Source: Gerris lacustris (taxonomy: Eukaryota > Arthropoda > Insecta > Hemiptera > Gerridae). From it: DNA of 64,000 nt. The notes beneath the pieces are model-generated. The model did not search any database. It saw nothing but the letters and a program-made list of their open reading frames with translations, and was not told the origin of the DNA. Position 1 is the first letter of the stretch. Every line of letters starts with the position of its first letter. The translations under genes were made by a program, and so were the position numbers. This document shows, piece by piece, positions 11,612 to 61,684 of the stretch. The DNA is taken from NCBI GenBank assembly GCA_951217055.1, contig OX578284.1, forward strand, positions 21,616,187 through 21,680,186. The letters are read 5' to 3'.

Positions 11612-11690
11612 AATAGACTCCAGCGCCGGGACTCGAACCACGGGCCTCTATATTTCCAGTATAGCGCTCTTACCAACTGTGCTACACTTT
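11612..11690 (-). repeat. tRNA-derived sequence (pseudo-tRNA or SINE head)
   Basis: Read on the - strand it has a D-arm-like TAGCACAGTTGGTAAGAGC (A box), a perfect anticodon-like arm (CTATA/TATAG with a CTGGAAA loop, nominal anticodon GGA), and GGTTCGAGTCC (B box). The T stem has two mismatches and no acceptor stem can be formed, and a Ser tRNA would need a long variable arm. It is therefore read as a tRNA-derived SINE or dead tRNA, not a working tRNA gene. Confidence 0.55.
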
Positions 11691-11819
11691 AAAATAATTT
11701 CCTCAGTCAATAACGATACCTATTTCCGAATTAAGCTTTCAATTTTCCAAAGCTTTCAATTAATTTGTTTGTATCACGCCATGATCACATTTATAAAAAA
11801 CTTGCCCTACTGATGTTGA

Positions 11820-19730: not shown

Positions 19731-19989
19731 GTCTGTGCCATATGGTCTTAGTGCGTTGACAGCGCGGGAAATTAACAAAAAGTAGAGTGGGGACGCAATG
19801 AGAGCTCAGGATTTTAAAATCCTGAGCCCACTCCCCACTCTACTTTTTGTTAATTTCCTGCGCTGTCAACGCACTAAGATCATTTGGCATTTGGCACAGA
19901 CAGGATTTTAAAATCCTGAGCTCCATTGCCTCCCCACTCTTTTTTTACTTTCCCATGCTGTCAACGCATTAGGATCATTTGGCACAGAC
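19731..19989. mobile_element. Foldback element with three arms around GGATTTTAAAATCC centres
   Basis: The ends read GTCTGTGCC (19731) and GGCACAGAC (19981-19989). The first arm (19731-19815) is inverted against the second (19816-19900), with a perfect 24-bp palindrome at their join (19804-19827). A third arm (19901-19989) repeats the second in direct orientation and starts with the palindrome CAGGATTTTAAAATCCTG. Shared words include TGCGTTGACAGCGC and GTAGAGTGGGGA. Confidence 0.8.
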
Positions 19990-21045
<1,056 letters not shown>

Positions 21046-21190
21046 CCTTATTGCAGTGCGCAAAAACACGGTATTACATTGCAGAAGTGTTTTGCCAGCC
21101 AAGCAAGAATGGCGGTGTGAGAGCACGCTCGTCTCTGATAAAGCCCTATATCTGATCTTCTTGATCTGGTATAGGTCCAGAGTTGGGTGG

Positions 21191-21233
21191 GCATCGTCGG
21201 GCCCCTGATGAGTCGGACGCGACGAAACGATGC
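21191..21233 (+). ncRNA. Hammerhead ribozyme core (type III topology)
   Basis: All core positions of the hammerhead self-cleaving RNA are present in order. Stem III 5' strand is GCATCGT (21191-21197). C17 at 21198 makes a GUC cleavage triplet. GGGCCC (21199-21204) serves as stem I. CTGATGA (21205-21211) follows, then stem II GTCG-GACG-CGAC (21212-21223) with a tetraloop, then GAAA (21224-21227), whose last A begins the stem III 3' strand ACGATGC (21227-21233). Stem III is a perfect 7 bp and stem II a perfect 4 bp with G10.1-C11.1. Cleavage is expected between 21198 and 21199. The odd part is stem I: three G-C pairs with no loop, so a monomer would fold poorly and pairing between two molecules through the self-complementary GGGCCC is plausible. 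Activity is inferred, not shown. Confidence 0.75.
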
Positions 21234-21323
21234 AGGACAGCGTAATGCCGAGCCAACATCTTTGTGACGTAATGTCTGATGTTGGAACAGTTCCTATGTG
21301 TCACGCTTGCGTGGAGAGACACC

Positions 21324-21357
21324 AAGGGATGTGTCACGCTCGCGTGGCACATCCCTT
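21324..21357 (+). repeat. Strong hairpin in the ribozyme unit
   Basis: AAGGGATGTG pairs with CACATCCCTT, and inside it CACGC pairs with GCGTG across a two-base loop, with only a T-G wobble between. A weaker sister hairpin with the same CACGC/GCGTG core lies at 21297-21321. Confidence 0.8.
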
Positions 21358-21419
21358 GTGTACCTTATTGCAGTGCGCAAAAACACGGTATTACATTGCT
21401 GATATATATATATTTATAC

Positions 21420-24047: not shown

Positions 24048-24625
24048 TGATGCAAACTGTCATCACCCGTGCCGGAGAAATGGAAGCAAGTAGAACCAGG
24101 AATCAGGTATATACCACCTATTTCAATTTTTCCGGGAATGATGATGGGAGTCACGAGAAATTGAAGCAAGTAGAACCAGGAATCAGGTATAAACCACCTA
24201 TTTCAATTTCTCCGGGGATGATGATGGGTGTCACGAGAAATGGTATCAAGTAGAACCAGAAATCAGGTATAAACCACCTATTTCAATTTTTCCGGGGATG
24301 ATGATGGGTGTCACGAGAAATGGTAGCAAGTAGAACCAGAAATCAGGTATATACCACCTATTCCGATTAATCCGGGGATGATGATGGGTGTCACAAGAAA
24401 TTGAAGCAAGTAGAACCAGGAATCAGGTATAAACCACCTATTTCAATTTCTCCGGGGATGATGATGGGTATCACGAGAAATTGAAGCAAGTAGGACCAGA
24501 AATCAGGTATGTACTACCTATTTCAATTACTCCGGGATGATGATGGGTGTCACGACAAATTGAAGCATGTAGAACCAGGAATCAGCTATATGCCATCTGG
24601 TTCTATTTCTTCGGCGCTGATGATG
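24048..24625 (+). repeat. 80-bp minisatellite, about 7 units
   Basis: AGCAAGTAGAACCAGGAATC-type words start at 80-bp steps (24091, 24171, 24251, 24331, 24411, 24491, then 24570), each followed by CACCTATTTCAATT and TCCGGGGATGATGATGGG. Units differ by a few substitutions. Short frames across it are by-products. Confidence 0.95.
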
Positions 24626-57320: not shown

Positions 57321-58893
57321 CTTGTTTTTTTTGGATCATACAGGTGAGTAATTTGTAACGTTTGTAAAATCATAATCATTAAATATAAATTATATAATTA
57401 AATAATACGAATAATGATAATAATTATAATAATAACACTAATAATAATGATAATTAATAATGATAGTAATAATAAGAAGTATATAATAATAACAACATTA
57501 ATAATAATAGTAATAATTATAATAATAAAAAAATAGTTAATGAGTACTCTAAATTAATTTTATAAATGATATAATAACGAGTTTTATAAATAATTAATAT
57601 AATAGAATGCATGCATAATAAACGAAATAAATAAACACAATACCTCTTACCTTTTACCTTTCCTGTGAGTGTTTTTGTTATTCTTAGAATATAGGTTTAT
57701 TATTTGTATAAGAACATTTTGTATGTAAACAAGAGATTAATTCTTGAGGATTATCTGTGAGAGATAAGAGAGACTCGGGAGGGAGACGATTGGGATTGCG
57801 GGAGTGACAACGATGAGTCAGTGGAGGCCTAGCCAGCTAGCAAGCCAGGAGTCTGTCTGGATACGGAAGCTACGTCGCGCTTAGCGGATTAACGACGAGC
57901 CTACGTATTCTGGTAGCGCCGGCTCTCCGACTCAACGGCACTGCTCCGACCCTACAGTTCTGCAAGGCTGCTCTCGTTCACCCACGTTTGCAGACCAGCT
58001 AAGTTTTAGTATTGCATAATTTATTATTTAAAGATTTAGCATTTCCTCTGCGCCCGTTTGAGGATTGATGGTGCGAAGGCACTTCTCATGGTGAATTCTA
58101 TTAAGTGCGGGGAATTTAAATTGAAGACTTCTGGGATTAGGAGAAGATTTATACTTCTAGTCGTCGGGAAATTTGAACTACGATATTCCGAGTCTCTCTT
58201 TTAGTTTAGAATGAACTATTGAATTTTCTTTATTTTATTTAGAACTTTATTATATTATTATTTAGATTTGGGTTCATAAGAACCGTTGGGTGAATTTATT
58301 ATTTTAAAACCCTCATTTGGAGTTTAGTTTTTTTACTGTCGGGCAATACCTTTTTTTTTTATGTGAGTCTTGTATTTTTTTTTTAATCTGATTCTTACTT
58401 ATGCTTTAAATTGTTTATAGGAAACTTTTGTGTTGATTTTACTTACTTTTATTCACGTTGAATAATTGCAAGATTAATAGCGTAAATTATAAATATTTAC
58501 AGTTCTTATGTATAAACTGCTTCATTATTTTATTTTATTTTTTTTTGTTCACGCTCACTGACCAACTCCTTTATTCCTTTTTCAACCCACTCCCAACTGA
58601 ACCTAGTCGGCAACCCCTTTTTTAGGTAACAAATTAATTAAAAAAAGGTTATACTTACCCCTAACGTATCATCAGACCTTAAGTCCTTTATCTACATCTC
58701 ACAGTGAAAGGCAGATGATCTGAGGATCATTTTTAATTATTTATATTTATTACACTTAAAATTGTTAAAAATATATAAAAATTTTAACAAAAGCAAGGAT
58801 TTTAGGTCTGATGATGCCCATAAGGAGTGAAATATAACCTTTCTTAATTAACCAATTGTTAATTTTACTCACCTATATGATCCAAAAAACAAG
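57321..58893. mobile_element. MITE with about 80-bp arms, split by an LTR
   Basis: The left arm starts TTGGATCATACAGGTGAGTA (57331) and resumes after the LTR at 58632 with AAGGTTATACTTACCC and ATCATCAGACCTTA. The right arm (about 58803-58893) is its inverted complement (TAGGTCTGATGATGCCC, GAAATATAACCTTT, TTACTCACCTATATGATCC). Without the LTR the MITE would be about 290 bp. A lone arm of the same family is at 39419-39510. Confidence 0.75.
57354..58631 (+). mobile_element. Solo LTR, 1,278 bp
   Basis: Starts TGTAACGTTTG and ends TTTTTTAGGTAACA (TG...CA), flanked on both sides by AATT (57350-57353 and 58632-58635), a 4-bp target duplication as in Ty3/gypsy-type elements. Its last 77 bases equal 62204-62280, which directly precede a primer-binding site, proving LTR identity. 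A TAA-rich stretch (57405-57540) and a GC-rich stretch (57760-58010) lie inside. No internal region is present: it was lost by LTR-LTR recombination. Confidence 0.85.
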
Positions 58894-60763: not shown

Positions 60764-61684
60764 AAACATAGAGGCCAAATTTCAAAAATCAATATAAATA
60801 GGGGAACTAGGCAAGGTGACATCCTTTCGGCCAAAATATTCACTGCAGTGCTAGACAGGGCGTGTAGAAACCTACAGTGGAACCGCTACGGACTTAATAT
60901 TAATGGCTCTAAATTAAATATTCTTAAATTTGCAGATGACATTGTCCTACTAGGAAGTAACATAGAGGAAATTGAAATCATGCTCGAAGAATTAATAGAA
61001 ACGGTCAGCAACGTGGGCCTGAGCATAAACCCGAAGAAAACAAAAACTATGTTTGTAAATGCGGAACCACAAGTGATAAAAATTAATAATACAGACATCG
61101 ACACAGTAGAAGAGTATATTTACTTGGGACAGTCCATCCATAATAATTGTAACGAGGAAAACGAAGTGAGGCGCAGAATCGCTTTAGGCTGGAGCTCGTA
61201 TAATAAGTTAAGAACTTTATTCAAATCAAAAGTGCCAATTGAGTTAAAAACCAAGCTGTGGCAAAAATGCGTGTTACCAGTTCTCATATACGGAGTAGAA
61301 ACGTGGTCCTTACCCAAAAGTATAATTAATAAAATGAGAATCACACAAAGACGAATGGAACGCAGCATGATGGGGATTACCTGGAAGGATAAGAAAAGCA
61401 ATGAGTGGCTAAGAAAAGAAACGGGATTAGTGGACATAGGTAAAGCGATGTTAGAAAGAAAATGGAAATGGGCAGGGCACATCGCCAGAGTTAAGGACGA
61501 GAGGTGGACATACAGAATGCTCCAGTGGTATCCTAGAGATAGAAAGAGAAGAAGAGGACGACCCAAGATCAGGTGGGATGAAGAAATGAGGAGAAGCTGT
61601 GGTGGAGAGACCTGGCCAAGGGTAGCTCTAGACAGAAAGGAATGGGACCGCATGAAAGATGTCTACGTGAATGTCTGGTTATAA
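60764..61684 (+). pseudogene. RTE-like reverse transcriptase, C-terminal part of ORF2
   Basis: Open for 306 codons from an upstream in-frame stop to TAA at 61682. RT landmarks are RGTRQGDILS (from 60800; motif with the conserved Q-G-D), KFADDIVLL with the catalytic Asp pair (60935-60940), GLSINPKKTK, and YIYLGQSIH. The C-terminal region has VLIYGVETW, KWAGHIARVKDERWTYRML and PRDRKRRRGRPKIRW, the arrangement known from RTE-clade elements. The N-terminal endonuclease and first RT motifs are missing, so the copy is dead, but there is no internal stop or frameshift, so it inserted recently. The start at 60848 (GTG) is not biological. Confidence 0.85.

Follow-up and report, generated by a model that had tools for sequence, protein, structure and literature searches.

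Metazoan non-LTR retrozymes have been described as tandem repeats, from dimers upward, of a 170-400 nt unit that carries a type I hammerhead and has a GC content below 45% (Cervera and de la Pena, 2020; PMC7229834), and the same source describes amphibian retrozyme hammerheads as more active in the form of dimers (PMC7229834). In plant LTR retrozymes, type III hammerheads with a looped stem I lie about 700 bp apart in the long terminal repeats (PMC4918200; PMC7229834). The small hammerheads of Penelope-like elements, which are of type I with a shrunken helix III, are described as acting as dimers (PMC7761336, citing Lunse 2017), and a palindromic closing stem III permits dimers of the Aedes aegypti hammerheads (PMC3088659). 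Besides, dimer action through an elongated helix III has been reported for viroid and newt hammerheads (PMC6155905), and dimer action has been described for the axolotl hammerhead (PMC6155905; PMC7229834). In animals, type III hammerheads are reported from HDV-like RNAs of termite and toad as well as from the genomes of termite and fly; their stem I is unusually long and has an internal loop and a pseudoknot (PMC7936874).

The locus described here lies in the window, by which we mean the whole 64-kb stretch of DNA that was analysed, and it resembles each of these systems only in part. As in metazoan non-LTR retrozymes, a short unit bears a hammerhead and there is no LTR, but their hammerheads are of type I with a weak helix III and their GC content is below 45%, whereas here the order is that of type III, the GC content is 52%, the weak stem is stem I and the locus spans 1.13 units. 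Plant LTR retrozymes likewise have type III hammerheads, a high GC content (above 55% there, 52% here) and a circular RNA intermediate, known in their case and inferred in ours; in contrast to them, the element has one hammerhead inside the unit and a terminal repeat of 39-42 nt that contains none. With the Penelope-like and Aedes aegypti hammerheads it shares a stem that is weak or missing in the monomer and that two copies could share, although that stem is stem III there (in type I for Penelope) and stem I in type III order here. The likeness to Penelope-like elements suggested in the initial annotation therefore stands as an analogy and not in the details, since in the type I hammerheads described for those elements it is helix III that has shrunk (PMC7761336). 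Finally, the termite, toad and fly hammerheads establish type III order in animals, insects included, but they have a long stem I where the present one has a stem I without a loop.

We read the locus, with a probability of about one half, as a type III-order hammerhead whose stem I has shrunk to GGGCCC, predicted to cut as a double hammerhead and carried by a retrozyme-like insertion derived from a circle. If it works, the candidate would behave as dimeric hammerheads do, with stem I as the stem in common, whereas those described in the sources cited here share stem III; a hammerhead dimer through stem I was not found in the titles or abstract openings searched, a collection that covers the smaller part of subscription papers.

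The hammerhead core and its spacer

The core occupies positions 21191-21233 of the plus strand. It opens with the 5' strand of stem III (GCATCGT, 21191-21197) and C17 (21198), 3' of which the cut is predicted from the place of this base in the hammerhead consensus. The self-complementary spacer GGGCCC (21199-21204), for which folding predicts that two copies pair with each other in a stem I of 6 bp, is followed by CTGATGA (21205-21211), stem II (21212-21223, with GTCG at 21212-21215, the loop GACG at 21216-21219 and CGAC at 21220-21223), GAA (21224-21226) and the 3' strand of stem III (ACGATGC, 21227-21233), the stem III strands and core letters being placed by the sequence and by the alignment to the Rfam model RF00008. 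The conserved elements of the hammerhead, namely CUGANGA, GAA and a cleavage triplet NUH closed by stem III, are all present. The initial annotation had recognised the core pieces with their order and spacing, the type III order, the GTC site and the palindromic spacer; every piece was found in its place, and the covariance model aligns over the full length.

The alignment of RF00008 with 21191-21233 scored 42.6 bits end to end (E 5.9e-8 with 601 nt searched) and was the top Rfam match of the 64 kb (E 6.2e-6 with 4227 families and the whole window), the next-ranked being a tRNA (E 1.5e-5). This comparison had been suggested beforehand; the match, the best in the window, lies under the gathering score of 48.5, for which reason the default Rfam scan overlooked the motif and only E-value scans picked it up. 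The gathering cut-off is not discriminating here, because none of the 11 RF00008 matches (39.5-48.3 bits) obtained in 9 of 10 control loci reached it. These ten loci were viral contigs in which our classifier had called 12 looped type III-order hammerheads, and the tenth (L177) gave no RF00008 match at E up to 0.01. No hammerhead was found on the opposite strand in the E-value scans of the 601 nt and of the whole window. Separately, the sole Rfam match at the gathering threshold in the window was a tRNA-Ser (GGA), identified by ARAGORN at 11616-11692.

A chance match or an artefact, which would fit with a single locus and a score below the gathering cut-off, is very improbable, as the first reading of the sequence had held: about 4e-7 such motifs are expected per 64-kb window from base composition, the E-value over 4227 families and 64 kb is 6.2e-6, and the motif is located within a discrete insertion. 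Judged from its letters, the hammerhead core at 21191-21233 can be regarded as confirmed.

Between C17 and CUGAUGA there are only six bases. A hairpin loop requires about 3 nt or more, so GGGCCC is unable to close as stem I in one molecule, where it is in effect an unpaired spacer. The earlier description of stem I as three G-C pairs with no loop consequently has to be replaced, for a single molecule, by that of an unpaired 6-nt spacer; the monomer has no closed, looped stem I. Moreover, contact between loop I and loop II is impossible, and low activity would therefore be expected at cell-like Mg.

Spacers were 13-21 nt long, most commonly 18 nt, in all 52 distinct looped type III-order hammerheads used as controls, for which the classifier took spacers of 8-29 nt. 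The controls were drawn from 256 loci fetched after hammerhead pattern searches of viral and genome contigs, among the matches listed, and being viral and bacterial they are uninformative on eukaryotes. With an initial classifier, 38 of the 174 core sites from 144 such loci (viral and bacterial, among the matches listed) could be assigned, and all of these 38 had spacers longer than 10 nt. A second classifier, which took spacers of 0-10 nt in the 256 viral and bacterial loci and the window, found a stem III of at least 4 pairs together with a stem I of at least 2 in the window only. Additionally, none of 57 matches with a 6-nt spacer (57 of 279 viral and bacterial loci) combined a stem III of at least 4 pairs, a stem II of at least 3 and a palindromic spacer, while three of the 57 had a stem III of at least 4 pairs and a palindromic spacer without stem II.

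Folding of one and two copies

The minimum-energy structure of two copies is exactly the nested double hammerhead (-39.1 kcal/mol, 28 of 28 pairs). It comprises two stems II and, between the molecules, two stems III of 7 bp each and a stem I of 6 bp common to both. The pairing required for it is nested, and the stem I pairs have probabilities of 0.885-0.896 in the two-copy fold. The monomer has a minimum free energy (MFE) of -13.7 kcal/mol (2 x -13.7 against -39.1 for the dimer) and keeps six stem III pairs with stem II absent; for 37 of the 52 looped type III-order controls, 90% or more of the hammerhead pairs were present in the monomer MFE structure. A double hammerhead was obtained with none of 300 random 6-nt spacers and with 9 of 64 palindromic hexamers. 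The energy gain on dimerisation, 11.7 kcal/mol, is not unique, because five of the 52 looped controls, which gain 3.0 to 13.0 kcal/mol with the form of their dimers left aside, gain more. Three looped controls gave invalid energies (near 99987) for the drawn structure, in which the drawn loop was too short.

In a transcript of two units, forming the double hammerhead costs 2.8 kcal/mol relative to the free MFE, and forming two monomer folds costs 5.4. The free MFE structure of one unit contains 4 of 11 hammerhead pairs and that of two units 8 of 28 double-hammerhead pairs; neither is the hammerhead or the double hammerhead, which counts against the dimer reading. The suggestion of the initial annotation that two transcripts or tandem units could supply stem I to each other thus finds its support in folding, where two copies of the core are predicted in silico to form two complete cores through a shared extended stem and random spacers do not do so.

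The same folds bear on whether the motif could be a minimal hammerhead that acts as a monomer, its stem I being open or reduced to one pair, or else a piece directed in trans at other RNAs. Formation of stems II and III without stem I is feasible (-11.4 kcal/mol, 3.1 above the free unit fold), but the scissile strand would then be unheld and closing one stem I pair costs energy (-9.2 kcal/mol), and we consider this explanation highly unlikely.

The 317-nt inserted element

The hammerhead lies within a unit of 317 nt on the plus strand (21044-21360), as defined by the spacing of a direct repeat, with a GC content of 0.517 against 0.236 and 0.214 in the 500-nt flanks. The first copy of the terminal repeat (21044-21085) is identical to the second (21361-21402) over 39 nt from the start and at 41 of 42 positions overall; the second copy is the beginning of a second unit, and its last 3 nt may be flank. 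A (TA)n tract at 20928-21045 is the apparent insertion site, and TA-rich DNA adjoins the outer end on the right as well as on the left. With such DNA at both outer ends, a target-site duplication is a less likely sense of the 39-42 nt repeat, and an LTR or TRIM element was rejected, the ends of the element not being TG..CA. The unit is highly structured, with a z-score of -4.72 as a 316-nt linear fold and of -4.36 as a 317-nt circle, each better than 100 of 100 shuffles, and a strong 16-bp hairpin near its end (21323-21358) is present in both the MFE and the centroid structure of the folded segment 21048-21363. No protein gene is evident in the unit, which is overlapped by two stop-to-stop frames (168 and 118 aa) that enter the TA repeat. 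The initial annotation had left the unit and its terminal repeat undescribed.

These features make a retrozyme-like element likely. Its unit of 317 nt with a hammerhead falls within the 170-400 nt of animal non-LTR retrozymes, but the type III order and the GC content of 52% depart from their type I hammerhead and GC content below 45%, and it is not a clean member of that group. A small, GC-rich and highly structured unit with type III order could also be the endogenised cDNA of a small circular replicon, for instance a satellite RNA of viroid-like or HDV-like kind from the host or from its flora, in place of a member of a genomic retrozyme family. We find this improbable, considering that a hammerhead was found on one strand only, whereas the agents of toad and termite carry them on both the genomic and the antigenomic strand, and that stem I in those agents is unusually long, in contrast to GGGCCC.

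Only a single copy was seen. There was no other 13-mer match in the 64-kb window (words of A and T only were left out), nothing related to the 359-bp element turned up among phages or plasmids with blastn in a distant mode, and one 26-mer of the terminal repeat had no exact match in viral contigs. A single copy accords with the main rival to the dimer mechanism, according to which the stem I loop was lost in this copy alone. The family would then normally have a stem I with a loop, and about 12 nt from its top would be missing from this insertion, for example because reverse transcriptase skipped the top of the hairpin. Such skipping would leave a perfect palindrome without selection, and the spacers of ordinary type III-order hammerheads are indeed longer. 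Against it, the copy is not visibly decayed: nothing is damaged in the rest of the core or in stems II and III, and the two terminal repeats agree over 39 nt without a mismatch; we hold this degenerate copy to be a serious alternative, albeit a rather unlikely one.

Several other features were observed in the window. An inverted pair of CTGATGATGGCCTTTTGAAGG-TGAAAGCTGC type motifs at 1740-1980 (1772 on the minus strand, 1938 on the plus strand) may resemble the ends of Penelope-like elements; as hammerheads these motifs were rejected, since even an E limit of 5 brought no match to a hammerhead family of Rfam. A similar hammerhead-like string, CTGATGATGCCCATAAGGAGTGAAA, is found at 58808-58832. 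At 24075-24625 an 80-bp unit is repeated in tandem (6.9 copies, 88% matches), most of the units containing a GATGATGATGGGTGTCACGAGAAA-like stretch, and at 19745-19985 a 95-bp repeat (1.9 copies) has inverted pieces around CAGGATTTTAAAATCCTG and weak, sub-threshold Rfam miRNA matches on both strands. A Pfam scan of 6 of the 11 window frames of 110 aa or more gave one match, RVT_1, about 39 kb from the hammerhead, and no tie to Penelope-like elements, for which a Penelope-type reverse transcriptase and a pLTR would be expected beside the hammerhead, was found among these six frames. The match is an open reverse transcriptase fragment of 306 aa (60764-61684); six of its 46 database relatives have an organism name, of which four are insect (Parnassius, Diaphorina twice and Diabrotica, 42-46% identity) and two, weaker than the insect ones, are nematode (Strongyloides and Plectus), so that an insect host is likely.

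A proposed cycle and its implications

Under the reading that we favour, an RNA circle of unit length was probably copied into DNA over 1.13 turns and the copy inserted in a TA repeat, as in retrozymes, and reverse transcription slightly beyond one turn of such a circle would give the terminal repeat that is observed. Multimeric transcripts would be cut into 317-nt units by double hammerheads, in which two copies supply stems I and III to each other, and the two copies could be tandem units of a single RNA or belong to two RNAs. A ligase of the host would probably then circularise the resulting units, and a closed circle of one unit, being unable to form stem I on its own, would be safe from cutting. 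The present locus has one hammerhead only, and therefore it cannot give the tandem form by itself and alone could cut only in trans.

A further and more tentative proposal, which is possible although we lean against it, is that the element represents a new class of insect retrozyme without stem I, in which the element counts its own copies by means of the GGGCCC palindrome: multimers would be cut by double hammerheads that stem I holds together, while the finished monomer circle would be unable to open itself. The unit offers a small, directly testable RNA, for which the monomer is predicted to be inert and the tandem dimer to be active. If true, these proposals would bring a type III-order retrozyme-like element to a likely insect host, and the sharing of stem I would show that copy counting of this kind has also been arrived at through a different part of the ribozyme.
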